From the IMG/VR virus record IMGVR_UViG_3300020220_000082, positions 1 through 50,344 of that record: a stretch of DNA of 50,344 nt, one strand, 5' to 3'. The position numbers and the translations under genes were made by a program. The notes beneath the pieces were generated by a model. It was not told the DNA's origin, made no database searches, and was given only the letters and a program-made list of their open reading frames with translations. This DNA comes from a virus. Shown piece by piece: positions 28,612 through 50,344 of this stretch (its first letter is position 1; each line of letters starts with the position of its first letter).

Positions 28612-28619
28612 TATTTAGT
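28612..28619 (-). promoter_or_regulatory. Putative late promoter ACTAAATA upstream of gp8
   Basis: Matches the xCTAAATA variant used by T4-like cyanophages and overlaps the TAA of gp7. The gp8 ATG follows at 28591 with no obvious Shine-Dalgarno. AT-rich surroundings make a chance match possible. Confidence 0.5.
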
Positions 28620-31600: not shown

Positions 31601-34600
31601 CCTGAACCACCACCATTAACAACAATTGATGATATTGTTCCGGCAGCAGAAACTATTGCATCAGCTGATGCTACTAACCTTGGTTGATATCCAAAAGAAG
31701 TACTTATCGAAACTACAGAAATTCTTCCTGCTGATGGAGTTCCACTTAGAAATGCCAAGGAGTTAGTTATTGAATTTTCAACTGTTACATCAACTGATGG
31801 AGTTTGAAAAACACCATTGATAAAAATTAATGGATTATTGCTGATATTACTACTATTATTAACATTATTAAATAATGTCGTGGTCGTGTTACCATCAACC
31901 TTTACAGTAAACTGAGTTGCAGCTATACCAGTGAATGAATTTGAAATATCATCTAGTATAATATTTTTATCTCTTGGTTCATTCGCATTAATTTGTCTGG
32001 AAAAAACTCTTCCAGAGAATGATGATCCCGTCTGAACTCCTGTTGGACCAGTTAGTCCATATGGTGCAGTAGCAAAAATTATAGTATCTCCAACTATATT
32101 AAATTTACCTTTAAATACAGTTCCAGCTATACCAACACTGTGTATTCCAATAGTAGATCCAAAAGAACCTCTTTCTACATCAAGTTTATTTTGACTTAAT
32201 AAAACATTTTTTACATTTAAATATTCATTATTTAATGCAATAACATCACCAACAACTACAGATGTTATTCCTGAAGAAATATTTAAGATTGTAGTTGTTG
32301 CAGTAGAAACTGCTGATGATAGTCCAATAATTAATGAAGTTCTAGATAAAGGTGGTTGAACAATATTATCAATTGATATAAATGCATTTGCATTAGGATT
32401 TTTAAGACTCAAACTATGTGATCCAATTCCTAACTGAGTTATATTTAAAAATGTTGAACTAGTAGATAATCCAAGCAATCCAAACTGATTATCACTTAAC
32501 TTATATACAAATACAGTTTTAGGTAATATTTTTGATCCAAGAACGGCCGGAGAGAAACTTACAAAATCAAAACTTGATCCACCCAGGTAAGTTCCGGCTA
32601 TAGATACTATAGAGGTTGTGGCATATCCCACACCGCCTTGGACAACATCAACTACTGATACATATCCAGAACCATTTCTCGTTACATTGAAAATTGCTCC
32701 ATTTGTATCTGTAGAAGGAACATTTAAGTATGTTTCATTTGCTCTAGTTTGAATACCTGTAGGTCCTACTGAAGATATTTTAAAAGTTAAATCGTTTGTT
32801 GGTGTCACTCCACCGAGATAAGTTCCAGCGATAGAAACGGTTTGTCCAACAGAATAACTTCTTCCACCTTCCATCAATATGACTGATGTTGAAATTGGTT
32901 GTCCGGTTGATGAATTATAATTTATAAGTATATTAAATCTTGCATTAGTTCCAATTCCAGCAGTACCTAGTCCTACAGCTTGTAAATACAGTTTAGAAGT
33001 TGGTCCAACTGGAGATAATACTGTAGAAACTCCTGTAACTGAAGTTGTTATAGCAACGGAATATCCATTTTCAAAAATTGCAGTACCTGTTAGTTTATGC
33101 ACTTGCATTAACACCGTAGCACCAGATCCAACATAAGAAGTTGTAGCTATTCCTATTGGACTTCCGTCAGAGAAATTATAATCAAGTTCTTGACCTGTTT
33201 GATAATTATGATTAAAAATAGTCAGTGTATTACTAGAAAGAGAAATTACATTTTCAGATGCAGAATTAAAAACATGTTTAAAAAGACTTGTTCCTTTATT
33301 TTTCAGTTTAAAGGTAGTAAGTCCAACTATTCCACCACCCAATGTAAGTGACGGATATGTCATAGTTGGAGCAAAAGATGTACCTAATCCAATAATAGTT
33401 GTTATAATTCCTACATAGTTTCCTAAAGAAGTTCTAACATCAGCACAATCAGTTGTTCCATAATTTTCAGTTGGAATACCAGAAAGACTACTATTACCTA
33501 TAGCAACCGTTAAAATACCAACTAGAGTATTAATATTCGTCTGGATATCTAAGTATGAATTAGTAGTTGTATTGACCCCAGTTAAAGGATCTGGTTCTAT
33601 AGTCAAATTTCTTGCATACAACTGATTTGTAATCGCTTGCTTCATAAAATATTTGGAAGTTTCAAACACCAATATTGATTGAGATTCTTCTCCAACTAAT
33701 CCATTGGTCAATGCAACACCAGCACCATTAAAATATTTTTTAGTATTATAAATTGTGTGTTGATTAGTACCGTAGGAAATATCTTGAGCAACACCATCTA
33801 TAATATATCCAAGATCTCTAAAACATTTTAGTCCACCTGTATTATATGTTCCAGGATTTGCGATGGGAAGAGTTGCTGTCGATCCAACAGAAATAATAGT
33901 ACTAACTATTCCAACCAAACTTATAATGGTATTTTGTACATCTGTGCAAGCTGCGGTTGAGGTTATTGCTACGTTTCCACCCCCACCTCCAAAAATTGTT
34001 GGTCCAGGAGTAGAGTTTAAATTTTTTAAGGTTAATCCATTTGTAACTGCAGTTCTCATTAAAGTCTGAGCTTGACCGAATGCAAATGTAGATTCAGCTA
34101 CCTCACCCACTAATCCGTTTACAATGGGCAATCCGTTATCAAAATATTTTAATACAAATAGACGAGAATAAGCATTTCCGCCCGTGAATAGATCAAGGGA
34201 GATAGCATCAACCAAATATCCTAAATCTCGTTTACAGGAAACTTCAGTAGCAGCTATTGCTGGATAAACTGCAACTGTATTATTCCATGCAGTGTTGACA
34301 ATTTCAGTTCTATTAATTTGTATCAATTGGTACGCACGATAATATCGTGATCTAGAATTAGTTTGACTATCTCCTGGGAAATAAAATCCTGTTGGGAATC
34401 CAACCGCAACTGCCGATAAAGATCTGTCTTGAATTTCTCTCTTATTGAGTAAAATTAAATTGCGAGCATTTTTAAATTTTGTAGATGTAACATTTAATGG
34501 ATCTTGAATAATTTCAAAATTAAATTTTTGTGCAACAGCAGTTTGATACAGTGTTGGGGGAGTTTGATTATTGATTATATATTGACCAATAAATTTAACA

Positions 34601-37600
34601 TAATTATAAGCAAATAAAATTCGATCAGTTTCAGCTGAAGTATATGAATATCCGGCATTCCAATAAGAAAGTCCAGCTTCTACGGATAAATTATTGGAGT
34701 TATATTTTAGATCATGTGTTACAGCGTCAACTATGTAACTAACATTATATGTTGTGCTTAATCCAATATTAGGATAATTAAATTGAACAAAGGACAGAAC
34801 TTCTTGTTGAATAAATTCATTATTCAATTCTAAGAGAGAAGCAGCATCGGCATATCTACCATTTAAATATACTTCCGTAGTACCAGTAAATTCTGGGCTA
34901 ATATCATCTATTCTTAATACTTTGTTTGTTTCATTTAAAATATATGGTTTGAGCTCAACTCCTTCAGTAAAGAAAATTTTATCTGTAGATCCATCTGGAT
35001 AAAGATCATCTTCATAAACTAGTGCATAATTTTTTATTGATGCAAAATCAACTTCACTATCAATATTAAATAAGAGTGATGAACTTGAACCCAATAATTT
35101 GGGTTTCATATTTTCCGATTTTGAAATACCTACTAAAACTTCATTAGAAGTTGGTTGAGTATATAAAGTATAATCTGAAAATTCTTGAAATCCAGATGGA
35201 TGAACGATTGATCTTACAGATTCTCTCCATGTTGAATATGGAACATTAGTTCTTAATGAATAAGAAAACTTCTGATAATAAAAATTATCAGAAATTCTTT
35301 GTTGAAACTCATTTAAAATACCATCGTTATTTGAAGAATTTTCTTTATCTCTAATTGCACCTAATGTTGAATTTAGTTCAAAAGAGCTAAGATACTCAAC
35401 AACACCGGTAATTTTTGAAGTTTCTCCAAATAATGAATCTCCTATTTTAAAGGTTCCAGAAGAATCGATAATTCTCATCTGATTTAATTTATCATCCCAC
35501 CCGTTTTCCATTATTCTACCACTAAATCCAGGCGAAACTACCTTCTCAGAAGATTGATATGTAACATCGTCTTTTAAGACCATTTCAAAAGAAGCCATAT
35601 CTTTTTTATTAATTACGTAACCTCTTCTTTCATCATCATATGTTCCGAAACTTCCAGTGGATATTCCAGACATACTATAAGTTATGGTATTATTTGAAGT
35701 GCTTACTCCAGTAACAGTGAAGAAAGTATAATCATATGATGAGGAATTAAAATTTGCTAGTCCACTAGTTTGACTAGTTAGAGTACATTTTTCAATAAAA
35801 ATTTTATCCCCAATTGAAAATGGAAACTGTACTATAGTTGATCCATATCCAATATTAACTAATGGATATGAAATTGGTGTATTTAATAGTTCTATCGTTA
35901 CGTCATTACCAGATATAGTGAAAGCATCTATTTCATATCCATTGGAATTATAAATTGGAATTATTTCTAATGGAGAACTAAGAGATGTGGAATTTTTTAT
36001 AATATCAACTTTAACTATAGACCCTCCACTAATAGATGATTTTAATTCAATATTTCCACCATTTTTTACAAATAAAACAGGAGCTGTATTATATTTTTTA
36101 CCCGCATTTAAAATTTCTATTTTATCAATTGTTCGTATATTTTTTATTCCACAAACTATTATTGAGGATAATTGTGCAGATAAAGTTGGGTCAGTAGGAT
36201 AATCAAATCCATCTTTTATTCTTGTTAATGTTTCAATTTTTCCAATATCATTGGATATTAACTTAAGAACAGCATTGTTTCCGGAATCAGATACAATCCT
36301 AGAAATAGTTGGTAATTTTAAATATCCTCTACCACCAAAATTAACTTTTACATCTTCAATAGGACCATCTGCATTTTCAGATGTAGTGGTATAACTTATA
36401 TTTGCACTTGGTAATATTTGTAGTTCAGTATCAGTTAAATTCTTTACTGAATTAAAAGAAAAAGCATTGTCACTATTAATTAAATCTATATTAATTTTAG
36501 TATTTAATTGATGTTCGATTACAGTAATTTTATTGAACGATACTACTTCTTCATCAGTTGATATTTGATTTTTAGATTGATCTAATGGACTTATTGGATT
36601 TAATTTATAATATAAAACTTTTGGAAACTCATTAACATTTGTGTTAATAGTTATTGAAGCGTTTGTTTGTCCTGGAATTCCAGATCTCGTAATAGCAAAT
36701 CCATCGTTAAAAAGTCCAATAAATTCTATTTTTCTAGTGAAATTGCTATCAACATAAAAGTCAAGTGACATATCAGATAGTGAGGCATCAGACAAATCAA
36801 AAGATATTATAGATCCCTTGTAAGGAGTTATTTGTGGATTAATAATTTTTATTGATTGTGAACCTCCAGATGAAGGAGATGTTATATCAATTTCTTTAGA
36901 AATGAAGATATCACTTTCATATTCACAAAAAGATATAATATCTACATCTTTTTTAAAAATATAATATACTCTTCCATTTGTTAATCCACCTAATGGATTA
37001 TCAGCAAAATAAACAACTTTTGTTCCATTTTTTATATTTCGGAAAGAAGTATTTTTTATAGAATTATTTGAAAGTGAAACGTTTGAATTATTAAAAGTAT
37101 ATTGTCCAATTAAAACTTTTCTATTAATTTTATCAAAAAATAATTTATGTGATTCAGTTAAAGTACTTAGAATTTTAAACTCAACTTGGTCACCAACAGA
37201 TAGACCATGGTTTTCCGATGTGGTTACAATTCCAGAAACTCTGTTTACACTAGCAGTAAGATTTTGATTTTGAGTTGTAAGTGAATGTGCCGATCCAACA
37301 ACTCCAAAAGCTTGGTCTATGTTCCAAAATTCTACACAGGCCAAATCTGTACCTATACCTGTAGAAGTTGTATACCCAACTGTTGATATACCTATGTAAT
37401 CTTTTCCTAGATTTACAGCATAAACTGTTTGATTATTAACAATAGTAAAAGATACTCCAGAACCAACCTTATTGATATACAAGGGTGTTCCACTAAGTCC
37501 AGCATTATATGTCAGGGGTTGACCTGTGTAGAATTTGTGGTTTGGTAAATAAATTGATTTTGCAGGTATGAATCTAGATTCAAAAGAAGTGGTTCCTAAT

Positions 37601-40600
37601 CCAACTACAGTCCTAGTTATTCCAGAAAATCCTGTTCCAACAGATTCTTTTGGATCGAAAAATGTAGTTGTATTGGGAATAAAGACTCCAGCTATTGGAT
37701 TTTCAGTTTTAAAGGTAAATTTCTTAGGAAGAAGAACAACATCATCTATTCCAGAAGTATGAACTCCCGTATTGGAAATTCTGTTCACAAAGAATCCAGA
37801 TCTTTGTGGAGAAATTCCAGTTATTAACAACGTTTCTGTTCCTATTCCAATAAAATCATTTACAGAAAAACCAGAAATATCTTTTACTTTTATAAAAGTA
37901 GATATTCCAGTGACTGCTTGTGTAGGAATACTTTCTATTAATTGAACTACCTTATCATTAACATTAATTTTATATAAACCTTCTAACTCAATTGCAGATA
38001 TTGTAGAAACTCCAGAAATAGTTACTGGTTCTAAATTATAAAATTGATGAGGTGTATCAAATTGTGCTTCAATCTGATTATATTTGGGGACAAAAACTAC
38101 ATTTGAAAAAGATTTCGATTGTACGGAGATATTTTTAATTTCCTTTCCCTTTAATTTTGATATTACAATATTGGCTCCAGTTCCACCTGAACCTTTATTA
38201 TCCAGAAGAATCAAATCATTTACTTTATAATTGTGGCCAGGAGAAAATATTGAAACGTCTTGTATTGTTCCAGAATTTAAATTTGTAATTTGAAATTCTT
38301 GTTTATAATTATCGGAAACATTATCTATGAGTCCATAAGATGATCTTGAATAATTTAAATAGTATGGTCCTACATTTCTTGTGACTTCATTTGTAAAAAA
38401 GTCATATCCTTGATTATATATTGGTAAAAAGTTTTCTTCTAATGGTATATTATTAAATGTTGGTCCAACAATATATGGATATCTATTTTTTGCTACTTTA
38501 GAAATGTCAATATCAACACTGTAAAAATATGCATAAACTCCATCAGGATATTCTGGAGTTACACAAAATCTCCCATTATGTTCATCAAGATCTCCAGAAC
38601 CATCATACACATAATCATTAACAAAGTATCCTGCTTGAAAACTAGATGGTCTAATATCTGGATCTGTAACCGCTTTTAATACATAACTAGTTTTTATTTG
38701 TCGTATTGCTCCTCCAGAAGCATTTCCATATCCGTAAGGTCCATATATAGGGTTTCCATCATAAGCATATCCAAATATAGGAGAATGTCGCAGTTCTCCT
38801 GAAGTTTCTTTATTAGATGCAGTAAAATTATCAGAAAGTTGATATCTTAATTTTTTTGGAATGTAGTATGAACAAACTTGCAGTCCTAACTCTTGATTTT
38901 GAGGGTCTAAAAGAATAGAATCATCGTTTTCATTGGTATAATTTTGAAATTTTACTACTTGATCAACTTTCCATTGTTTTAGATTTGCCAAAAACTTTGC
39001 ACTCTTTCCTCTATTTTCCAGTCTTATACTTGTATTTGATATGCCATATCCAACTCCACCATCAATTATATTGGTTTGAACTAATTTTCCTTCAGAATTA
39101 ATAATTGGTTCAATTTTAGCAAAATCTCCATCACCTGTAATGATAATATCAGAGTCTTCCCTATACCCTTTACCACCATTGGTTATTTTAACATCCACAA
39201 TTTTACCATTAACAACAATAGGAACCAAGGAAGCTTCAGATTTTATACTAGATACTCCTACAAAAGGTCTCCTATGAAAATTTACTATATCTGTGCATCC
39301 GTAAGAAACCCCACCAGTTTCCAAATAAATATCTTCTATTTGTCCCAGAACTACCGGTTTTAAGATCGGAGAAATTATAGATGTGGATCCCAAAGAAGAA
39401 GTAGCTTCTACACTTATTGTTATAGGCGGGTATCCAATAATATGTGTTCCGACTCCAAGAGACTCAAATTTAATATATTTTTTATTTACATAATTATCAG
39501 TGGTTAAACTGGAAATTCCAACTCCAGCGAAAGAAAGTTTAAATTTATTTTCATCTAAAACTTTTATATAATAATAATGGGAAGTATTGAGTCCAGATAT
39601 TGGTGTTCCCGTAGTAGAATAAGTAACAAGTTCAACATCTGAAAATCCGTGATTTGGAGCAAAAACATATGAATCAAAAGTATTGATTCCAATAGTATCA
39701 TTATCAAATGATAAGACCGATAAAACTTTTACTTTTCTGTTTGAATATCCTTGTCCAGGATCTTTAACATAAATCTCGGTTATTGTATTTTTACTTTTTA
39801 AGGTACTAAAATAATGAAATCCAGAACTAACTCCAATAATATTAACTTCATTAATTTTCTTTAGAGATTCTTCTTTTGTTGTATAAAGTTTAATTTTACT
39901 ATCACTTACTATTCCAACATAATAAGATGACCCATTTACTAATCCAGGCACGTCTAAATTAGTATTTGAATCATATACTATCTCTTCCCCATCTTCAAAA
40001 GCAATATTTGTTAAGAACGAAATAATATTATTTGTATCGTCAACATTTATTTCTGATTTAAATCCATAAGATAATCTTGATTTCACTAAATTCGATTCTA
40101 ATGAACAACCCGCTCCATTACCACCAAAAATATTAATTTTGGGTTTAGATTGATATCCTATTCCTGGAGAGATTATTTTTATTTTTTCAACTTTACCTGA
40201 TAGATTTGCATGAGCTTTTGCGCCGAGTCCTGATGAATCTATAATTTCAATAGTAGGAGGATTTACAACATCATATCCAACTCCTTTATTAGTAACATCT
40301 ATAGAATCTATAGGTCCGTAAAAAATATTTTCATCATAATATGTTGAAGATAATAATTCAACACCGTTTACCATTAAACCTACTTGTTTGTTATTTGTAG
40401 TTCTCTTACTAATATCGTCAGCAGAAGAAACTTTTGTTGGAGTAAATGGAAACTTTTTAAGAATTTTTTGGTGATTTAAAGTTTTATTTGCGAATCCACC
40501 AATAACTATAGTATCTGAAGAAATTCCTGATTTAGCTTCAAGATATTTCTTGGAAAAAATATCTGATTTACTAAATGATAGTTTTATATTGTTTGGATCA

Positions 40601-42486
40601 ACAGAAGTGACATAGTAGTAACCGGTGGATATTCCAGAAGAATTAAAATTATTTGTATTATAAAATATTAAATTACCATTTGAATAGTTATGACTTGGAA
40701 CATAAAAAGTTGACGTAAATCCTTGAAATTCTGCAGGTCTATTTGATTGTACAAACGTTTGTACGGTTCTTTTATCATCGGTCACGTAAATTGTATAATT
40801 TGGCAGTCCCGAAGAAGTCACATAAAAATACTTATTATCTTTACCCAAATAACTATTTTGAACTCCAGTAGGATATTTTACAATATCAGGAAAATAATTA
40901 GTATAGTGATTTGATTTATTAATTGTTTTTTGTATACATTTAATTTTATTTACATTTATACCTACTTGTGTAAGTTGCACCAATATTTGATTGGAATATT
41001 TTTTAATCTGATCAGAAATAGGAAACTCGATGCCTATAATTTCAGCCTGAACAAAATTAGAGTTTTCATCAAAAACTAATATTTTCTCTTGGTTATATGC
41101 AGATATTTTATCATATAGAGTAAATCTAAACTTATTTGAACTTTGTTGTTCAGATAATTCAACATCATGTTTTGTTGGAATATTGTATATCCATGAATTA
41201 AATCTCACATCATCCAATAAATTTTTACCAAAAGAAGATAATTTAATTTTATCCCCTACTCTTAGATTATTAGTAGTTTTATAATCAATATCTTGAATAA
41301 CATTTACGACTCTAAATTCTACTTTAGAAGTATTTCCAAATCCAACATAACTATAAGCAAATTTATCTTCTACTAAGAAAAGCCCATAATTTAATTTTTT
41401 TGTTACACCAGTTACTCCTAAAAATTGGGTGGAAGTTTTATCCGTATAAAAAATTTCTATAAAGTCTGAATTTTCGGGTTTGACTAAAATTTTTCCAGAT
41501 TTTTCAAATCCAACAGTAGAATCAACTATAATATTGTTAGCTCCCACTTGAACATCTTCAAGTATTTTTGTTTGGCCTGTAGCTCGAAAAGTTCCAGAGA
41601 GGGAAGATGAATCTAAAGAAATTTCATATAAATTTTTACCTGATACTGGTCTGAATTCTATATTAAAGATAGAACCGGTTGCGGTTGAAATACCAGTATT
41701 TTGAAATAAAAAGTTTCCTTTAGTGTTTACTGGATCTGCTCCAGAAATTTTCTCTACAAGAATATTTTTAGTAACAAAAAAAGTATCTGAAGATGGTTTT
41801 AATGTAAAATCATTTGGTTTTATTACATCAATATCACTTCCATACAATACTTTGAATAAAAATTTATAAGAAGAATCTGTACCTTTTGAAATATAAAAAT
41901 TTCTTGCATTTAAAAGTACATTTTCTATCGAAACATTTTCATCAAAATTTCTATTTTCAAATCCAAGGAAAAACTCATACTTAAAATTCTCATAGAATTT
42001 AAGTAAAAATAAATTACTTAAATTAATAACCTCAGATCCGGAAGAATGTTCAGTTGCTGAAGTTTTAGAAAAATTTAAAAATTCAGAATTTTCAAAAGAT
42101 TCTATAGAATCAATTCCAGAAAATCCTCTGATACACCCAGTAAACGTATTTGTCGTTATACCAGTATATGTGATGATTTCATCATTAATTTTTAATAATC
42201 CATATGTATCTGGCCAACCATCTGTACTATCTACTGTTATAGTGGTGTCATATGTCAATAGATTACTACTTAATTCAGTTGCCGCAACCAATTTTAGTGG
42301 GTTGAATTCACTTGTACTTTTATACTTGTTTATATTTGAAGCTAAATCAACCGTTCCAGACTGATGTTCTAAAGATTTGTAATATTGTCTTAAAAACTCA
42401 ACAAATAATGGAGAGTCTTCACTTAGAAATTGGGGAATTTGAGATTCTATTATAGAATCAATTTTTACTCTTTTAATTTCTGACAT
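28615..42486 (-). CDS. 7: Giant baseplate wedge initiator gp7, 4,623 aa
   Basis: Identified by position between gp6 and gp8 and by its N-terminus (MSEIKRVKIDSIIESQIPQF, then LSEDSPLFVEFLRQYYKSLE and FLLKFYENFKYEFFLGF), which I associate with gp7 of T4-like cyanophages. T4 gp7 has about 1,030 residues, so this protein is more than four times longer. Recognisable insertions: at least thirteen GxGY beta units spread along the chain (for example GKVEKIKIISPGIGYQSKP); a YHYH-like domain at about 1220-1330; a helical module at about 2540-3040 shared with the tail fibre; and a beta-propeller-like repeat region at about 4050-4370. In T4, gp7 starts wedge assembly with gp10 and then gp8 and gp6. The ATG follows the gp6 stop by one base. 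The extra modules probably decorate the baseplate rim; that is inference. Confidence 0.87.
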   Translation of the reverse strand: MSEIKRVKIDSIIESQIPQFLSEDSPLFVEFLRQYYKSLEHQSGTVDLASNINKYKSTSEFNPLKLVAATELSSNLLTYDTTITVDSTDGWPDTYGLLKINDEIITYTGITTNTFTGCIRGFSGIDSIESFENSEFLNFSKTSATEHSSGSEVINLSNLFLLKFYENFKYEFFLGFENRNFDENVSIENVLLNARNFYISKGTDSSYKFLFKVLYGSDIDVIKPNDFTLKPSSDTFFVTKNILVEKISGADPVNTKGNFLFQNTGISTATGSIFNIEFRPVSGKNLYEISLDSSSLSGTFRATGQTKILEDVQVGANNIIVDSTVGFEKSGKILVKPENSDFIEIFYTDKTSTQFLGVTGVTKKLNYGLFLVEDKFAYSYVGFGNTSKVEFRVVNVIQDIDYKTTNNLRVGDKIKLSSFGKNLLDDVRFNSWIYNIPTKHDVELSEQQSSNKFRFTLYDKISAYNQEKILVFDENSNFVQAEIIGIEFPISDQIKKYSNQILVQLTQVGINVNKIKCIQKTINKSNHYTNYFPDIVKYPTGVQNSYLGKDNKYFYVTSSGLPNYTIYVTDDKRTVQTFVQSNRPAEFQGFTSTFYVPSHNYSNGNLIFYNTNNFNSSGISTGYYYVTSVDPNNIKLSFSKSDIFSKKYLEAKSGISSDTIVIGGFANKTLNHQKILKKFPFTPTKVSSADDISKRTTNNKQVGLMVNGVELLSSTYYDENIFYGPIDSIDVTNKGVGYDVVNPPTIEIIDSSGLGAKAHANLSGKVEKIKIISPGIGYQSKPKINIFGGNGAGCSLESNLVKSRLSYGFKSEINVDDTNNIISFLTNIAFEDGEEIVYDSNTNLDVPGLVNGSSYYVGIVSDSKIKLYTTKEESLKKINEVNIIGVSSGFHYFSTLKSKNTITEIYVKDPGQGYSNRKVKVLSVLSFDNDTIGINTFDSYVFAPNHGFSDVELVTYSTTGTPISGLNTSHYYYIKVLDENKFKLSFAGVGISSLTTDNYVNKKYIKFESLGVGTHIIGYPPITISVEATSSLGSTSIISPILKPVVLGQIEDIYLETGGVSYGCTDIVNFHRRPFVGVSSIKSEASLVPIVVNGKIVDVKITNGGKGYREDSDIIITGDGDFAKIEPIINSEGKLVQTNIIDGGVGYGISNTSIRLENRGKSAKFLANLKQWKVDQVVKFQNYTNENDDSILLDPQNQELGLQVCSYYIPKKLRYQLSDNFTASNKETSGELRHSPIFGYAYDGNPIYGPYGYGNASGGAIRQIKTSYVLKAVTDPDIRPSSFQAGYFVNDYVYDGSGDLDEHNGRFCVTPEYPDGVYAYFYSVDIDISKVAKNRYPYIVGPTFNNIPLEENFLPIYNQGYDFFTNEVTRNVGPYYLNYSRSSYGLIDNVSDNYKQEFQITNLNSGTIQDVSIFSPGHNYKVNDLILLDNKGSGGTGANIVISKLKGKEIKNISVQSKSFSNVVFVPKYNQIEAQFDTPHQFYNLEPVTISGVSTISAIELEGLYKINVNDKVVQLIESIPTQAVTGISTFIKVKDISGFSVNDFIGIGTETLLITGISPQRSGFFVNRISNTGVHTSGIDDVVLLPKKFTFKTENPIAGVFIPNTTTFFDPKESVGTGFSGITRTVVGLGTTSFESRFIPAKSIYLPNHKFYTGQPLTYNAGLSGTPLYINKVGSGVSFTIVNNQTVYAVNLGKDYIGISTVGYTTSTGIGTDLACVEFWNIDQAFGVVGSAHSLTTQNQNLTASVNRVSGIVTTSENHGLSVGDQVEFKILSTLTESHKLFFDKINRKVLIGQYTFNNSNVSLSNNSIKNTSFRNIKNGTKVVYFADNPLGGLTNGRVYYIFKKDVDIISFCEYESDIFISKEIDITSPSSGGSQSIKIINPQITPYKGSIISFDLSDASLSDMSLDFYVDSNFTRKIEFIGLFNDGFAITRSGIPGQTNASITINTNVNEFPKVLYYKLNPISPLDQSKNQISTDEEVVSFNKITVIEHQLNTKINIDLINSDNAFSFNSVKNLTDTELQILPSANISYTTTSENADGPIEDVKVNFGGRGYLKLPTISRIVSDSGNNAVLKLISNDIGKIETLTRIKDGFDYPTDPTLSAQLSSIIVCGIKNIRTIDKIEILNAGKKYNTAPVLFVKNGGNIELKSSISGGSIVKVDIIKNSTSLSSPLEIIPIYNSNGYEIDAFTISGNDVTIELLNTPISYPLVNIGYGSTIVQFPFSIGDKIFIEKCTLTSQTSGLANFNSSSYDYTFFTVTGVSTSNNTITYSMSGISTGSFGTYDDERRGYVINKKDMASFEMVLKDDVTYQSSEKVVSPGFSGRIMENGWDDKLNQMRIIDSSGTFKIGDSLFGETSKITGVVEYLSSFELNSTLGAIRDKENSSNNDGILNEFQQRISDNFYYQKFSYSLRTNVPYSTWRESVRSIVHPSGFQEFSDYTLYTQPTSNEVLVGISKSENMKPKLLGSSSSLLFNIDSEVDFASIKNYALVYEDDLYPDGSTDKIFFTEGVELKPYILNETNKVLRIDDISPEFTGTTEVYLNGRYADAASLLELNNEFIQQEVLSFVQFNYPNIGLSTTYNVSYIVDAVTHDLKYNSNNLSVEAGLSYWNAGYSYTSAETDRILFAYNYVKFIGQYIINNQTPPTLYQTAVAQKFNFEIIQDPLNVTSTKFKNARNLILLNKREIQDRSLSAVAVGFPTGFYFPGDSQTNSRSRYYRAYQLIQINRTEIVNTAWNNTVAVYPAIAATEVSCKRDLGYLVDAISLDLFTGGNAYSRLFVLKYFDNGLPIVNGLVGEVAESTFAFGQAQTLMRTAVTNGLTLKNLNSTPGPTIFGGGGGNVAITSTAACTDVQNTIISLVGIVSTIISVGSTATLPIANPGTYNTGGLKCFRDLGYIIDGVAQDISYGTNQHTIYNTKKYFNGAGVALTNGLVGEESQSILVFETSKYFMKQAITNQLYARNLTIEPDPLTGVNTTTNSYLDIQTNINTLVGILTVAIGNSSLSGIPTENYGTTDCADVRTSLGNYVGIITTIIGLGTSFAPTMTYPSLTLGGGIVGLTTFKLKNKGTSLFKHVFNSASENVISLSSNTLTIFNHNYQTGQELDYNFSDGSPIGIATTSYVGSGATVLMQVHKLTGTAIFENGYSVAITTSVTGVSTVLSPVGPTSKLYLQAVGLGTAGIGTNARFNILINYNSSTGQPISTSVILMEGGRSYSVGQTVSIAGTYLGGVTPTNDLTFKISSVGPTGIQTRANETYLNVPSTDTNGAIFNVTRNGSGYVSVVDVVQGGVGYATTSIVSIAGTYLGGSSFDFVSFSPAVLGSKILPKTVFVYKLSDNQFGLLGLSTSSTFLNITQLGIGSHSLSLKNPNANAFISIDNIVQPPLSRTSLIIGLSSAVSTATTTILNISSGITSVVVGDVIALNNEYLNVKNVLLSQNKLDVERGSFGSTIGIHSVGIAGTVFKGKFNIVGDTIIFATAPYGLTGPTGVQTGSSFSGRVFSRQINANEPRDKNIILDDISNSFTGIAATQFTVKVDGNTTTTLFNNVNNSSNISNNPLIFINGVFQTPSVDVTVENSITNSLAFLSGTPSAGRISVVSISTSFGYQPRLVASADAIVSAAGTISSIVVNGGGSGYRNAPPVSLASTIGYGASLVAFVGTSGTTLGIVTSIKVVTPGIGYTITSPPTVVIGIPTGYSNLGLAYTGGTSGVGQQAKITVEVGSGSSIIDFKFDNPGIGYKVGDKLKVVGIPTVHSGPLTEFVLTVDVVETDSFSGFYPGQFIKFNDISNSFNGFRKKFTLSTEINGVTEIINLRTPTGSDLDITNNIFIFLNDILQDPTYSYTFRGSRVIFTEAPIAGSKCTILYYRGSSVDVSEITPPKTIKEGDTVTIQESATDIFDIQQFDRVVKTLTSSDQLDTFIYSSIGIDDDVSKFRPLTWKKQKQDRIISGTLFSKSRPSVQANIFPNAHIIKKIEASDDVIYVDNAFPLFSDLDQLNENIRDIFITENRTVIDSIGQATVSGASTVSSIIIANAGVGYANTLSPKVRISTSSIKKKDPIYNWKYVNISGITSSSVFNNISYGNQFVAVGNSSLFAYSFDGQLWTTGNVGVGSTVNLKSVKKVSIGSSDIILTVGTKAKIAQAVGYSSTITSWDQIPCFEEITLVGVGVIGYNPTTYNGSFNSITYGSNGWVVVGTGGSIFTSSGIITSRFVSRYSGVNQDLNSIAYGNQYFVAVGSNGTVISSDNGTSWEINQSGVPSFQKYNEVIFDGSKFVVVGNNGTILKSINRTQYQVVSNNINSSENIIDITYFDGLYVGITSVNKMYYSFDLQNWTYRNTLQSNQLNDALFANSLGLDGTFVAVGAAGTIITSTPVYHGATAQSVVTNGQVSSINITDGGFGYFNYDIPSVIIESEIFKKELIRSFKVKGDYGNIIGVTTFLAGTPGIGTTSPKIDFRLKSETYDNSTLGIGYSSPNTFGVTASQLQKGDYFVISQSNVQTDGSLIGISTLLGGMSNYPNSKIGIATNFLDGVYIVENVTTPFAGIVTVTCHFAPDSGTSVSVSDRGTYDSNTSTFSGINTNGFYGRYSWSKLYDFQNRSLSLGGSKSFDVYTDNGLTGLSTSPRVIRTRPNLSN
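29385..30340 (-). other. Beta-propeller-like repeat region in gp7
   Basis: gp7 residues about 4050-4370 repeat the phrase 'xIAYGNxxFVAVGxxGxIxxSxDGxxW': ISYGNQFVAVGNSSLFAYSF then DGQLW; ITYGSNGWVVVGTGGSIFTS; IAYGNQYFVAVGSNGTVISS then DNGTSW; VIFDGSKFVVVGNNGTILKS; and GTFVAVGAAGTIITS. This is the blade pattern of BNR/Ycf48-like beta-propellers. I see five to seven blades. Confidence 0.78.
33370..34860 (-). other. gp7 segment homologous to the tail-fibre helical module
   Basis: gp7 residues about 2540-3040 carry two full C-x-RDLGY-x-x-D units (CKRDLGYLVDAISLDLFTGG and CFRDLGYIIDGVAQDISYGT) and one diverged unit (NVSYIVDAVTHDLKYNSNN), plus YVKFIGQYIINNQTPPTLYQ. Order and spacing match fibre residues about 890-1814, including the linker phrases NLNSTPGPTIFGGGGGNVAI and TAACTDVQNTI. 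Confidence 0.85.
38500..38830 (-). other. YHYH-like domain in gp7
   Basis: gp7 residues about 1220-1330 read HSPIFGYAYDGNPIYGPYGY, then DGSGDLDEHNGRFCVTPEYP and DGVYAYFYSVD. This is the order of motifs of the YHYH domain (GYAxDGFPIYGP, then DLDExNGxF, then PEYPxGxYxYxxT, then PYIVG). It is present uninterrupted within the giant protein. Its biochemical role is unknown. Confidence 0.72.
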
Positions 42487-42487
42487 T

Positions 42488-44398
42488 TTATCTAGTATAC
42501 TGTCCGTTTAGATAGCTTGATGTTGAAACATATTGTGTAGCTGAAATATTTTCACCTGAGGTAATACTATCTTCAATCATATTTACCACTGATTTTTGTA
42601 TATCAACTTGAAGATATAAATCTTTCAATCCAATAACATCATTGGATTCGGGAATAGCTTGAACTTCGATTACTCCACTCTCTGTAGTTGAATCTATTAT
42701 ATTTACCACATTCAAAAGTATCTCTCCTTTTTTATAATCAATAGTTCCAGCATTTGCAGTAACTATCGTAGGAACATTATTTGTCAATTTAAAAAAGAAT
42801 ATTCTTCCAAAATTTGTCGTTTTAGATGTATCTAATGTTCCCGCTGTTGCACTATCTTGTACTTGTACATCCGCCATATAAATTATTTCTGAAGTTCCAA
42901 ATATTTTAAATCCTGTTGATTTAATGGAGTATCCATTTTTTTTAATATGTATTCTATTTCCAAAACATAACTCATATGTTGCAGCAGTGTTTAATTTTGG
43001 AATTAAATCTCTCCTCATTCTAACTTTTGTTATATTCGATGTTACTGCTTTATCGGAATCATCAATTAATCCAACAACCTTACTATATTTGAATCTTCCG
43101 CCAAAACTATTAACATCAGAAGATTTTGAGTATGTTGTTAAAGTATTTAAAATTTTTCCTCTGATAGATTCTGGACGAGTAGACCTATTTACGTTGTAAT
43201 AAACGGAAGAATCTATTTCAACATACAAATATGACAAATCAACAATTTCTGGCTTAATGCCAGCTATTGAATATTGTTTTAATGATCTGGATATTTCCTG
43301 TTTTGTTAAAGATGATAAAAATTGCCCATTTCTTGGTTTTATAGAAATGAATACTTTACCATATTCAGGTGGATCCAACTCTTCTCCACCATAAGCAGTC
43401 ACAGAATCAACATTTGAATATATGTACGGTATCAATCCCTTATAGTCATTTGCTGTTACTGCTCTATACTGAGAAGCATAAACTCTTGGAGCCAAATATT
43501 TAATTGAATCAATATTTTCAATTTCATCACCATTTTGTGATGGAAACTCAGTAAGAGGTAAAGAAACTCCAGAAGAAATTTCTTCAAGATTATTATCTTT
43601 CAATATTCCGGCAAAAGTAAAATTATTTGCACCATTACCAGAAGTACCACTCGTAACAATATAGCTAACTTCAATTCTGCTTCCATCTGGAGGTCTTTTT
43701 CCTAAAATATCATCCCCAAATCTAATTTCATATTTTTGATCGGAAACTTCCTGAATCAAAAATATTCTAGAGTCTTTATTAATGTTTAAAATATTATTAT
43801 AAATTGTATAAATTTCAGTAACTTGATCTGTAACTTTAATTCTAATAGTAGTAGTATCAATATTTGGATTTGGTAAAATAAATCTTTGATTTTTTTGGGA
43901 ATAATCCATTATAAAAGTACTAGTTAAATATCTCCCCTCATATACTTCTAAATTATTAAAATGTGCAAATCCATCACCTTCTATAGGAGTGGTTACATTT
44001 TCTGGAATTGAAAATATAAAATTGCCACCAACTACAGCCCCTAATACAATAGTGCCTGCATAAACAGTAACTGTTCTAGAATTGTTATTGTTTCTCATAT
44101 CCACTGAGAAACTTATTTTTGTCCTTGAAGATCTTCTTGACCTAGGAACATAACCTATATTACGAGCCAGTGAAACAACATTTTCTCTAAGAGTTGCACT
44201 ATCTAAGAAAGTTTCATTTACTGCCATATTCGTATTATAGGCAGTAATATAACTATTGTATGCTAAGAGATCAATTAGTGTAGAAAAATTAGATCCTTCA
44301 AAATCAAAGTCGGTGAACTCACTATTTGCTCGCAAATAGTCTTTGATCTGTATTCTTAGATCGTTAAAGTCTAAATTTGTGAATTGATTAAATGACAT
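42488..44398 (-). CDS. 6: Baseplate wedge protein gp6, 636 aa
   Basis: Close to T4 gp6 in length (660). The N-terminus (MSFNQFTNLDFNDLRIQIKD, then YLRANSEFTDFDFEGSNFST and LIDLLAYNSYITAYNTNMAV) and the following NETFLDSATLRENVVSLARN with IGYVPRSRRSS are the classic gp6/baseplate-J-like pattern. gp6 dimers link neighbouring wedges into the inner baseplate ring around the hub, and the family is shared with gpJ of P2 and contractile injection systems. Central parts (LAPRVYASQYRAVTANDYKG, YGGEELDPPEYGKVFISIKP) fit. Its ATG overlaps the gp25 stop by one base (TAATG), so gp25 and gp6 are translationally coupled, and gp7 follows after one base. Confidence 0.95.
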   Translation of the reverse strand: MSFNQFTNLDFNDLRIQIKDYLRANSEFTDFDFEGSNFSTLIDLLAYNSYITAYNTNMAVNETFLDSATLRENVVSLARNIGYVPRSRRSSRTKISFSVDMRNNNNSRTVTVYAGTIVLGAVVGGNFIFSIPENVTTPIEGDGFAHFNNLEVYEGRYLTSTFIMDYSQKNQRFILPNPNIDTTTIRIKVTDQVTEIYTIYNNILNINKDSRIFLIQEVSDQKYEIRFGDDILGKRPPDGSRIEVSYIVTSGTSGNGANNFTFAGILKDNNLEEISSGVSLPLTEFPSQNGDEIENIDSIKYLAPRVYASQYRAVTANDYKGLIPYIYSNVDSVTAYGGEELDPPEYGKVFISIKPRNGQFLSSLTKQEISRSLKQYSIAGIKPEIVDLSYLYVEIDSSVYYNVNRSTRPESIRGKILNTLTTYSKSSDVNSFGGRFKYSKVVGLIDDSDKAVTSNITKVRMRRDLIPKLNTAATYELCFGNRIHIKKNGYSIKSTGFKIFGTSEIIYMADVQVQDSATAGTLDTSKTTNFGRIFFFKLTNNVPTIVTANAGTIDYKKGEILLNVVNIIDSTTESGVIEVQAIPESNDVIGLKDLYLQVDIQKSVVNMIEDSITSGENISATQYVSTSSYLNGQYTR

Positions 44399-44796
44399 TA
44401 GACTCTAGTTGGTTGTAATATGAAGTCTACTGTTTGAGGAGGAATTGATAATCCAATAACATCGTAAGATATTGCAATATTTAATTCATTAGTATAATCT
44501 GGATAACTAACTTCAACAGAAGATATTTTAATTCTTGGTTCAAAATTCTTAAGCAAAATTTCAATATCTATTTGTAAAGATCTAGCTAAAGGAATTGATT
44601 GAAGTTCAAAAACTGAACTTTCAATATTAGTTCCTATAAGACTATTAAAAAATTTTTCTCCAATTCTAGTTCTAACTAGATTAACTACAGATTTTTTAAT
44701 AGCATCAGCATCATTTAATGATAAAATATCATTAGTTACAGGATTTCTAGTAAATGAAAGACTAATGTCTCTAAATTTTCTAGAAATCCTTCTCAT
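44398..44796 (-). CDS. 25: Baseplate wedge subunit gp25, 132 aa
   Basis: GPW/gp25 family; it forms the sheath-nucleating part of the wedge core with gp6 and gp53. Motifs: AIKKSVVNLVRTRIGEKFFN, SLIGTNIESSVFELQSIPLA, and the C-terminal NIAISYDVIGLSIPPQTVDF. I use the ATG at 44796-44794, giving 132 residues as in T4; an in-frame GTG one codon earlier (44799) would add one residue. A late-promoter-like AATAAATA lies 13 bases upstream of the GTG, which leaves a very short leader. gp25 opens the baseplate gene run gp25-gp6-gp7-gp8. Confidence 0.93.
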   Translation of the reverse strand: MRRISRKFRDISLSFTRNPVTNDILSLNDADAIKKSVVNLVRTRIGEKFFNSLIGTNIESSVFELQSIPLARSLQIDIEILLKNFEPRIKISSVEVSYPDYTNELNIAISYDVIGLSIPPQTVDFILQPTRV

Positions 44797-47805: not shown

Positions 47806-48962
47806 ACTTTATCTGAAACTGAAACTTTAAAATGCTCTAAGGCTTTTTTAATTTTACCATGATTATATGTTCTTTGGCATGTTTTATCATGCATAAAATT
47901 ATCCAGTCGATCTACATTATCTTTGAATCTTTTTTCATTATCGTGCCATAACTCACTGATATTTGTTGATCCATTCAATAATGTTTCATTTCGATCAATT
48001 GCAGCCGCAAGTCTTTCAAATGGATTCTCAATCTCATCATAACTATGATCAATAATATCATCAAACGTATCGATATCCAAATAGCTTTTAATTCCTTTTA
48101 CCATCCCAGGCCCATTCAGATAGATTGGAAAATTTTGGCCATAGATCGATTGTAGTTCTTTTTCGCTGAGTAATGGAGATCTTTCAAAAAAGATTGATCC
48201 AGGTATAATTTCAATTCCAACATTTTCATAAGCTGGTTTTATATTTGTATTGTAATTATTTGCAACTCGATCATCATTTTTTGCAAAGTCATCAATGGAT
48301 AATAAATTAAAATCTTTTTCTTTAAACCGTGTAAAACCTTTTGTTAAAGTTCTTTTTAACTCATTTGACAATATTGCTACATCTGATATATTTTTATATT
48401 GAGGAAAGGTTGAAAGTGTTGATTCATCCATTCTAACTGAAATATCACCATTTCGATAATAATCTTTAGATAACAAATAACATATTGCTAAAATTTTATG
48501 TAATTTAGTATTTCGATTTAATGATATCCATCGATTTGAAATTTCTTTTTTTTCAACAGGAGTAAAATTACTTGCAAAACTTGTAGGTATAATTGAATCA
48601 AAATATAAATTAGGAATATTAAACTGTTTTTGAAGATCTAAATGAACATTGAATATAATAAAATTTTGTTCTGAGTGATTTTTACAAAATTGCGTGATCT
48701 GTTTTATATCCAGATTATCATATTCATCGACTATTGAATCCATGATATTTAAAATCACAACTCTACTACTAAATTCAATTTGATTTAAATCATTAAAAGA
48801 TGTTCCACTGGCGTAAGGACAATACAATAATTGATAACATTCGATATTTTCACCAATTTCATGCGTATCCAAAAAACTTTCAAGTGTATCGTTAAATGGT
48901 ACACCTACAAATGAAGATAATGTGTTAATTCTAGAAATATTTTTGGAAGATTTCTTTTTCAT
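47802..48962 (-). CDS. Putative glycosyltransferase-like protein, 386 aa
   Basis: The C-terminal part (about 265-340) reads LSEKELQSIYGQNFPIYLNG, then PGMVKGIKSYLDIDTFDDII and DHSYDEIENPFERLAAAI. This is the 'EKxxxxxxxxxPFIxxGxPGxxxxLxxLGFxTFDDxIDxSYDxIxxxxxR' pattern of a glycosyltransferase-like family common in marine phages and cyanobacteria. The N-terminus (MKKKSSKNISRINTLSSFVG, YQLLYCPYASG) is less clear; the middle (NRWISLNRNTKLHKILAICY) also fits the family ('xxxNRxxxxHRxxxxxxL'). Soluble; no signal. It is flanked by an oxygenase-like gene (overlap of 32 bases) and the acyltransferase (ATGA overlap), supporting a role in making or modifying a sugar or peptide-linked glycan. The activity itself is inferred. 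Confidence 0.65.
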   Translation of the reverse strand: MKKKSSKNISRINTLSSFVGVPFNDTLESFLDTHEIGENIECYQLLYCPYASGTSFNDLNQIEFSSRVVILNIMDSIVDEYDNLDIKQITQFCKNHSEQNFIIFNVHLDLQKQFNIPNLYFDSIIPTSFASNFTPVEKKEISNRWISLNRNTKLHKILAICYLLSKDYYRNGDISVRMDESTLSTFPQYKNISDVAILSNELKRTLTKGFTRFKEKDFNLLSIDDFAKNDDRVANNYNTNIKPAYENVGIEIIPGSIFFERSPLLSEKELQSIYGQNFPIYLNGPGMVKGIKSYLDIDTFDDIIDHSYDEIENPFERLAAAIDRNETLLNGSTNISELWHDNEKRFKDNVDRLDNFMHDKTCQRTYNHGKIKKALEHFKVSVSDKV

Positions 48963-49491
48963 TTGATAGTCTCATTGAGAGTAAAATTCTTGGCAATTCT
49001 TGATTTAAAATTCGAACGCTATGAAGTTCTTTGACATTCATTAATGTTGGAATATCTAAGACGTATTTATCTATTTCGTTACAATCATTCAGATCATAAT
49101 ATGTCCCTGTCCCCCATCGGTGTGAATGAAGTACTCCTTTAATATCTTCATTCTTTTTTTGATAGAAAACTGTTTCTGCACTTTCTCCATTTAAAATAGG
49201 CCAATTTAATCGAATTCTTTTTCCAGTTGATGAATTACCCGCATCTGTGTGTATTGGAACATGAGTATCTATATCTACAAAAAGATATGATGCAAATATA
49301 ACCTCAGAGTTTAATTCTTTATGAATACATTCAAATAATTCTGGAATATTTTTTTTAAATTCTTGAAGGTTTTCTTCTGAAATTAAATTGTAAAATAATT
49401 TTTCACTTCGATTTATAAACTGAATCACATAAGGACTTATAGTTTCTTGAATACTGTCAAAGTTATTAATATCAAGTTTCTTGTAATACAC
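48931..49491 (-). CDS. 2OG-Fe(II)-oxygenase-like protein, about 186 aa
   Basis: A jelly-roll iron-binding pattern: PIHTDAGNSS (HxD at residues 81 and 83 of this start) followed by GKRIRLNWPILNG, a distal VKELHSVRIL (His157), then PRILLSMRL with arginines suited to bind 2-oxoglutarate. This resembles 2OG-Fe(II) dioxygenases, which are frequent in T4-like cyanophages; the alternative is a non-enzymatic cupin. The frame is open to a TTG at 49533, but a late-promoter element CCTAAATA at 49524-49517 would start RNA near 49511, downstream of that TTG, so I choose GTG 49491 (leader about 20 bases, with AGGGA 16 bases before the GTG). If transcription comes from further upstream the longer form (48931-49533, 200 residues) is possible. 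Its 3' end overlaps the next gene by 32 bases. Confidence 0.6.
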   Translation of the reverse strand: MYYKKLDINNFDSIQETISPYVIQFINRSEKLFYNLISEENLQEFKKNIPELFECIHKELNSEVIFASYLFVDIDTHVPIHTDAGNSSTGKRIRLNWPILNGESAETVFYQKKNEDIKGVLHSHRWGTGTYYDLNDCNEIDKYVLDIPTLMNVKELHSVRILNQELPRILLSMRLSNEKEIFQKYF

Positions 49492-49516: not shown

Positions 49517-49524
49517 TATTTAGG
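49517..49524 (-). promoter_or_regulatory. Putative late promoter CCTAAATA
   Basis: Cyanophage-type xCTAAATA on the minus strand at the boundary between the GC-rich block and the AT-rich phage genes. A short inverted repeat (CCCT/AGGG) flanks it. It would serve the oxygenase-like gene and the glycan cassette. Confidence 0.5.
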
Positions 49525-49533
49525 GGCCGGCAA

Positions 49534-49757
49534 AAAAAATTTTGAATACGAAAGGCTTTATGAGCGCTTTTTGGGGTCGTTATAGATTAGGGTAGTGAGC
49601 GGTTTTATATACGGGGGCCACCGCGCCCCGCGCTAACATAAACCGCGCACAAAACCGCTGCTCAAACTGCGCCAGCTACACGAGCATCGCTGCTCCTCCT
49701 AGGTCTATTCGTGTCCCCTCCAAGTGCTCATAAGCCTCAGAGGGGACACATAAGCCC
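49534..49757 (-). other. GC-rich structured intergenic region (candidate RNA element)
   Basis: No convincing gene. GC content is well above that of the phage genes (about 60% in the core 49610-49700). Minus-strand hairpins, in order: GTGTCCCCTC with GAGGGGACAC (10-bp stem, 49749-49740 with 49720-49711); GAGCA-GCGA-TGCTC (49695-49682, GNRA-type loop); and AGCGGTTTT with AAAACCGCT (9 bp, 49659-49651 with 49606-49598). The last encloses GCGC/GCGC and GGGGC-GCGGTG-GCCCC hairpins, so it resembles a three-way junction. It might be a leader, a processed RNA, a protein-binding element or a boundary of a transferred segment. No T run follows, so it is not a simple terminator. Confidence 0.55.
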
Positions 49758-50003
49758 TCAGCCGCTGGTCTTGAAGTATGCTGCACCGTTGCCCTCAGTG
49801 ATAGCATTCTGTGCATGTGTGGCGTGCCCATTGTATGCCTGACCGCGACGGTTAGTGTTAGTCCGAGGGCCATTCGTGCGGCTCATGATCAGCTCAGATT
49901 TCTTAGCTTTACGGGTGGGTAGCACAGTGTACTTAATCTGCCCCTGCACATCAGCAACCAGGAGATCCAGTTTGCTTGCTTTGGAGATGTCAATGTTGGT
50001 CAT
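49758..50003 (-). CDS. Hypothetical protein, 81 aa
   Basis: Reads MTNIDISKASKLDLLVADVQ, then GQIKYTVLPTRKAKKSELIM and SRTNGPRTNTNRRGQAYNGH. The N-terminal half looks like a short beta/alpha unit; the rest is basic, then Asn/Gly/Thr-rich and probably disordered (AYNGHATHAQNAITEGNGAA). Family not recognised. Base composition is higher in GC than the structural genes, like its upstream neighbour, 42 bases away. No clear Shine-Dalgarno. Another frame across the same stretch is open but has no support. Confidence 0.58.
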   Translation of the reverse strand: MTNIDISKASKLDLLVADVQGQIKYTVLPTRKAKKSELIMSRTNGPRTNTNRRGQAYNGHATHAQNAITEGNGAAYFKTSG

Positions 50004-50045
50004 GAGATTGTTAGCGAAGGTGTGTTGGAAAGTATAGACGAATGA

Positions 50046-50327
50046 TCAAAGATCACTCATCATTTCATTCATCTCGACATCACAGATCTTGTCATCATCC
50101 CAGCTAACCCCATCAGGAGTTTGCATCAGATGACGACCAATCTGGCCCTCAGTCATACAACGAACGAACTTAGCCCATGGGGTCTCAGAGTCACCACAGA
50201 AGGTCACACAAGCCTTTGCAGTGTTATACAGAAACTCATCATTGCCAATCCACAGAGCAGCATTCCAGGTTTCGTAGTTAGCCCAGCCGTTGTAGGTTGT
50301 CATGGTGGTTTGAGTGGTTTTGTTCAT
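50046..50327 (-). CDS. Conserved hypothetical protein (NGWANYETWN type), 93 aa
   Basis: Begins MNKTTQTTMTTYNGWANYET and continues WNAALWIGNDEFLYNTAKAC. The 'YNGWANYETWNxALWIxNDExLY' phrase is a widespread small-protein family in phages and cyanobacteria whose function is unknown to me. A Met at residue 9 (TMTTYNGW) is an alternative start. The C-terminal part (GDSETPWAKFVRCMTEGQIG, then WDDDKICDVEMNEMMSDL) is acidic and likely helical. The gene begins 17 bases from the window edge, so its promoter is not visible. Higher GC than the genes to its left. Confidence 0.72.
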   Translation of the reverse strand: MNKTTQTTMTTYNGWANYETWNAALWIGNDEFLYNTAKACVTFCGDSETPWAKFVRCMTEGQIGRHLMQTPDGVSWDDDKICDVEMNEMMSDL

Positions 50328-50344
50328 ATGGCTAAGATACAGGT

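Follow-up and report, generated by a model that had tools for sequence, protein, structure and literature searches.

The DNA analysed here in full, referred to below as the window, is a linear virus contig from IMG/VR, 50,344 bases long. Towards its right-hand end, a GC-rich intergenic region lies between genes that are all on the minus strand, and within this region is a conserved non-coding element, the subject of this report. The genes that frame it, and the landmarks further downstream, are:

49758-50003, minus strand: upstream gene, encoding an 81-aa protein, the last gene of a tract of small ORFs
48931-49491, minus strand: downstream gene of 186 aa with a likely GTG start, the first gene past the element
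44413-44787, minus strand: gp25 homologue (tblastn with P-SSM4 gp25, E=4e-20), a syntenic landmark 4.8 kb downstream of the element
42644-44389: homologue of gp6 of T4-like phages, neighbouring gp25

Neither the 81-aa nor the 186-aa protein has a Pfam or PHROG match. The downstream gene probably starts at GTG 49491 (VYYKKLDINNF) and not at TTG 49533; we take 49491 as the probable left boundary because relatives begin the same protein with ATG at that point. Downstream of gp6 are three very long minus-strand ORFs (1521-13322, 19463-26989 and 28615-42486) of 3933, 2508 and 4623 aa, which probably encode tail or fibre proteins. On the other side of the region, several relatives (L041, L101, L122-L126) retain the first ~83 nt of the 81-aa gene, the remainder being replaced or an insert following, and in these loci the element behind the gene is unchanged. 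The spacer between homologues of this gene and the element varies in length, reaching several hundred bases (L101, L117-L119 and other loci).

A preliminary description of this DNA, made from the sequence alone, had called the region non-coding and far richer in GC than the surrounding phage. No coding potential was seen in it, and a tRNA/tmRNA scan of the region found neither. Its GC content of 52% does stand out against the left-hand gene tract (27.5%) and the whole window (33%), but not against the coding DNA to its right (49758-50344), which likewise has 48% GC. The region is therefore no GC island standing alone; it forms the margin of a GC-richer early-gene tract.

Anatomy of the conserved element

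Conservation is concentrated in an unfolded stretch of the minus strand, AAAA-N6-ACTaCCCTAAyCTAyAA, followed by an A/T tract. In the versions of the region collected with the flanking proteins (below), it is the unpaired minus-strand stretch TnAAAAnCGCTnACTACCCTAATCTATAACGA-CCCCAAAAAGCGCTC, and not the stems, that is conserved, again followed by the A/T tract. The features of the region, in minus-strand order, are:

49711-49720 / 49740-49749, minus strand: 10-bp hairpin GTGTCCCCTC/GAGGGGACAC, just after the stop of the 81-aa gene, lineage-specific
49682-49695, minus strand only: small hairpin with a GCGA (GNRA) loop
49657-49661, minus strand: GCAGC, the window's form of a GCAGT/CAGT box (alignments)
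49598-49606 / 49651-49659: 9-bp stem AGCGGTTTT/AAAACCGCT, enclosing GC-rich hairpins
49614-49629, minus strand: GC-rich hairpin GGGGC/GCCCC, just upstream of the core
49603-49606, minus strand: conserved AAAA box, 6-7 nt upstream of the core
49580-49596, minus strand: near-invariant core ACTACCCTAATCTATAA (alignments; family consensus ACTaCCCTAAyCTAyAA)
49562-49579, minus strand: downstream conserved block CGACCCCAAAAAGCGCTC (alignments)
49531-49544: A/T tract CAAAATTTTTTTTG, of a kind generally present downstream of the core
49517-49523, minus strand: CTAAATA, a degenerate late-promoter-like sequence (alignment)

Using the flanking proteins as bait in viral contigs, we collected 36 distinct versions of the intergenic region. 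For loci found by pattern, conservation of the core letters is partly by construction, and unbiased support comes from blast searches with the consensus, from a predefined genome set and from the gene-baited set. In 119 non-redundant sequences, many of them selected with AAAA in the pattern, each position of the AAAA box (-10 to -7) is 94-100% A. At a fixed distance, the G at +29 in the downstream block is 99% conserved. A tract of A4T4 or longer follows in 83 of 130 sequences, against 1.9 expected by shuffling. Beyond the tract, many relatives have CATAAATAC at the position of the window's CTAAATA; the cyanophage late promoter consensus is NATAAATA (PMC2984593). The GCAGT/CAGT box frequently lies at the element's upstream edge. 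Strong sigma-70-like promoters in the sense direction occur 34-168 nt upstream in 35 of the 130 sequences (27%), compared with 4.3 in shuffles and 6 antisense; in L280, L259, L268 and L278 a strong TTGACA-N17/18-TATAAT-like promoter is present in sense, 39-134 nt upstream of the core. The core is retained while flanking genes and hairpins change, and over about 50 bp the internal distances are fixed, which suggests that a protein binds there. A search of the open-access literature turned up no account of the element.

Distribution in T4-like cyanophages

Scanning viral contigs with the pattern recovered at least 120 stretches. Short consensus queries matched about 330 phage records, each at a single place except for a few matches that are probably due to chance, and the matched records are all Synechococcus or Prochlorococcus phages. 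For scale, gp25 is carried by at least 434 cyanophage records. As a guard against selection bias, a sequence-only model of 60 positions, R1, was built and applied to 16 cyanophages that a published study had compared (genome list PMC3037559). In fourteen of the 16 it finds a single strong copy, at E 2e-6 or better. P-HM1 gives a weak match (E 0.017) and P-HM2 none, and in both a diverged version can be recognised at the syntenic place. The model also finds a diverged copy in S-PM2 that the pattern misses, the cores of S-PM2, P-HM1 and P-HM2 being diverged. A second match in S-SSM7 is insignificant (E 0.08), and R1 detects no element in T4 or KVP40.

The position is constant too. In the seven genomes measured, the element lies 1.7-4.8 kb upstream of gp25. 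In P-SSM4, P-SSM7, S-CAM22, S-SKS1 and S-MS29 it separates a tract of small early-type ORFs from the structural cluster, and it occupies the same boundary in P-SSM2, Syn33, S-PM2 and Syn9, in the last between gp90 and gp91. Its genome coordinate is about 53.5 kb in Syn9, 51.8 kb in P-SSM4 and 69.1 kb in P-SSM2. In annotated phages, a same-strand gene follows at about 80-130 nt. The element is nearly universal, single-copy and syntenic in the T4-like cyanophages tested. A homologous region, on whose existence in relatives the preliminary description had made its reading depend, is thus very widespread.

Hairpins and folding

That reading was of a possible three-way-junction RNA, composed of a 10-bp hairpin, a GNRA-loop hairpin and a 9-bp stem enclosing two further hairpins, and the description proposed folding both strands. 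Each strand of the region does fold better than its dinucleotide shuffles (z = -4.6 for plus, -3.4 for minus); the core region itself folds little or no better than shuffles.

The 10-bp hairpin is present as described, and on the minus strand its extended form reaches 17 bp with one bulge. In an alignment of 30 close relatives, 87% of its cells are paired and six pairs have changed on both sides, which identifies it, on comparative grounds, as a real hairpin of the window's lineage. The 9-bp stem, by comparison, exists in the window sequence and does not hold as a conserved unit: 64% of cells are paired, and three of its nine pairs are broken in 24-25 of the 30 close relatives. One of the hairpins inside it is 56% paired in these relatives; the other is invariant and therefore uninformative on pairing. 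The GGGGC/GCCCC hairpin is invariant in close relatives, unconserved in the wider family and missing from the host copies described below. The GNRA-loop hairpin exists on the minus strand only, and its loop sequence is not conserved.

Consensus folding gives the same picture. RNAalifold on the 30 close relatives predicts 12 pairs, none of them compensatory, 73 diverse homologues yield no consensus base pair, and Rfam has no match at the gathering score or at E<=1. A long-range pairing between the loop of hairpin A and the segment after the core shows some compensatory pairs in the close group, and one slid version of it also scores. The three-way junction was rejected as a conserved unit, with the 9-bp stem broken in most close relatives, no shared pairs among the 73 homologues and Rfam blank. 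The wider proposal of a regulatory RNA likewise fails on covariation and on Rfam, the exception being the compensatory changes of the stop-proximal hairpin, which are confined to the close group.

Copies in host genomes

A scan of bacterial genomes with the core pattern pointed to several Prochlorococcus genomes. In 400 Prochlorococcus/Synechococcus-family genomes, the exact core pattern alone was found in 5 genomes versus 3 for the reversed pattern, a difference that is not significant, and the claim of host copies rests for that reason on the extended match to the model. Such matches reach E<=1e-4 in 7 of the 400 genomes. Two further genomes from the pattern scan also match the model, giving nine host genomes with extended matches of E 5e-11 to 5e-5, mostly in genomic islands. 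Among 60 Flavobacteriaceae used as a control, there was one match, to a cyanophage contig, and no true match. This contig, 188 kb long and part of a Nonlabens xiamenensis assembly, carries the element together with cyanophage gp25 and gp6 (L426, G009:C10:125001-144900); it is probably the genome of a cyanophage that was filed with that of a flavobacterium.

The host copies keep AAAA-N6-core (with the AAAA box in most), and the A/T tract is kept in G004, G008 and G383. They are without the GC-rich hairpins, so these are dispensable. Most have no same-strand gene behind them, or the next gene is convergent; in G005, as an exception, a plausible small same-strand gene begins at +97. A leader or promoter role explains the host copies poorly because most of them lack a same-strand downstream gene; they are better explained by a DNA site on which phage machinery acts. 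The idea of a leader controlling the glycan cassette, also raised at the outset, is unlikely, since the genes downstream of the retained element differ between phages and the island copies mostly have no gene behind them.

Tycheposons are tyrosine-recombinase mobile elements of Prochlorococcus found at tRNA genes (PMC10872708). A tyrosine recombinase is present in the same island as the element in G004, G006, G383 and G395; in G008 one is found on the same contig at a distance of 12 kb. A serine resolvase is found in G004, G006, G008, G383 and G395 (recombinases were identified by Pfam and homology). Near the element in G005, G007, G066 and G273, no site-specific tyrosine recombinase was found. 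The tyrosine-recombinase family of the G395 type has only seven copies in the roughly 15 Mb of the nine genomes, so that four elements within 12 kb of a member (G004, G008, G383, G395) are far above chance, which by our estimate would give about 1% per element. A tRNA gene lies beside the element in G008 (tRNA-Asn) and in G383 and G395 (tRNA-Ser), and none was seen in the stretches examined around the other host copies. The tRNA gene of each of these three islands is intact, and the element is oriented towards it; the copies are 0.5-2 kb from the tRNA, inside the islands and not at the att junction. Several of the islands are termed tycheposon-like on the basis of recombinase and tRNA only. 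In G273, G006 and G007 (L344, L347, L348; all Prochlorococcus), the copies occupy the same island, flanked by guaA and the gene of a penicillin-binding protein, both identified from the sequence by inspection. Recombinases of the kinds seen in the host islands were not found near the element in viral contigs.

Discussion

We think it probable that the element is a cis-acting DNA site for replication or packaging, the two taken together. Our first choice between them, tentatively held and given somewhat less than an even chance, is a T4-type replication origin, with a packaging site second. The element would be bound by the phage's own DNA machinery: a factor would recognise the AAAA-N6-ACTaCCCTAAyCTAyAA core, the adjacent A/T tract would open, and replication would start there. 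The GC hairpins, which vary, would have an accessory role. A copy of the site may be carried by mobile elements travelling with these phages, so that the phage machinery serves them as well.

An origin fits because the site is single-copy, has an A/T tract, lies in promoter-rich surroundings and is placed upstream of gene 25. As expected of an origin, it is one positionally conserved non-coding site (strong in 14 of the 16 test genomes, diverged and syntenic in the other 2), and an A/T-rich region that could unwind adjoins the putative recognition sequence far more often than in shuffled sequence (83 of 130 versus 1.9). In T4, the origin near uvsY adjoins gene 25; the positional argument drawn from it is one of analogy. 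Several observations count against an origin. Host copies are rare (7 of the 400 sampled genomes), the cores of S-PM2, P-HM1 and P-HM2 are diverged, and in known satellites the site shared with the helper usually serves packaging, not replication. There is also no GC-skew switch at the element: the detrended minima of the four 170-kb genomes fall about 47-53 kb from it and that of P-SSM2 76 kb from it, skew being a weak guide in T4-type phages.

Packaging offers a possible, less probable account of the same facts. The core would be a pac-like site, recognised by the terminase of T4-like cyanophages to start headful packaging, and satellites of the tycheposon type would have copied it so that their own DNA is loaded into phage heads. 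A single copy per genome combined with sharing by mobile elements is what such a site would show; a shared packaging site is the most common arrangement known between satellites and their helpers (P4, PICIs), and the one fixed direction, towards the tRNA, in the G008, G383 and G395 islands is consistent with it. T4-type terminases, however, are not known to require a strict pac site, the element lies beside the early/late boundary and baseplate genes, and contig ends near it in close relatives fall at varying distances with no sharp cut signature there.

Control of transcription at the early-to-late boundary is unlikely. In this account the element would be a binding site, promoter or terminator region at which the phage switches over from its small early genes to the late operon, and its constant position between the small-ORF tract and the structural genes, the excess of strong sigma-70-like promoters upstream and the late-promoter-like sequences after the A/T tract in part of the family all argue for it. 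The upstream promoter is not universal, however, and apart from G005 most host-island copies have no same-strand gene or face a convergent one. One site per genome is also odd for this role, as late promoters lie upstream of many genes in cyanophage genomes (PMC2984593).

The preliminary description had also suggested a packaging or recombination site, which in proposing a DNA site pointed the right way. Its recombination half fares badly: an attachment or recombination hotspot for cassette exchange, among phages and with host islands, is very improbable. Gene content does vary on both sides while the element stays, and the islands carry integrases, but the host copies are poorly placed for such a hotspot, being inside the islands and off the att junction, no such integrase is near the element in phage contigs, and the fixed internal spacing favours a bound protein. 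Least credible is a structured regulatory RNA, whether three-way junction or other fold and whether acting in trans or as a leader, a reading largely refuted because the low folding energy in the window, the one covarying hairpin and the long-range pairing of the close group are outweighed by an unfolded core, host copies without hairpins, a 9-bp stem broken in most relatives, a blank Rfam search, the lack of any shared pair in the 73 homologues and the lack of any compensatory pair in the RNAalifold prediction for the close group.

We put an even chance on the broader proposal that T4-like cyanophages share one undescribed cis site that starts replication or packaging, and that Prochlorococcus tycheposons carry it in order to be copied or packaged by these phages. 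Some tycheposons are viral satellites, and we infer that the islands described here may be satellites of T4-like cyanophages. If this is true, T4-like cyanophages would be identified as tycheposon helpers, giving a mechanism of island transfer in the ocean: the site in integrated Prochlorococcus elements would tie them to a helper virus and throw light on the movement of islands from cell to cell. Few viruses of the sea are as abundant as the T4-like cyanophages, and no mapped start of replication or packaging was found for them in the literature searched. For Syn9 a single origin has been predicted only, and whether other cyanomyoviruses have the same is not known according to a review (PMC2984593). 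A nearly universal, single-copy, syntenic site offers a concrete place to look for such a start.

Comparison with known systems

Among non-coding features of T4-like cyanophages, the element can be set beside the CfrI antisense RNA of S-PM2. CfrI is associated with psbA and with the gene of a homing endonuclease (PMC2984593); the element, unlike it, lies upstream of gp25 and has no conserved fold.

The closest parallel for an origin is T4 oriF (uvsY / gene 25), which is also non-coding, A/T-rich, upstream of gene 25 and close to promoters. The two have no sequence match, R1 being blank in T4 and KVP40. T4 moreover has several replication origins, whereas the cyanophage element is one site per genome and a candidate origin only.

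For the sharing with host elements, the models are P4-P2 and the PICIs, in which cos or pac sites are held in common; there too, a single-copy cis site of a phage is also found in integrated host elements. The present case differs in that the helpers would be T4-like cyanophages, a group for which the literature searched gave no site of this kind, and in that a packaging role of the element is hypothetical.

Tycheposons, finally, compare with the host side of the system. The phage element itself is not a tycheposon; the resemblance is that of several islands around the host copies, which have a tyrosine recombinase, a resolvase and a tRNA gene, and are likened to tycheposons by recombinase and tRNA only.
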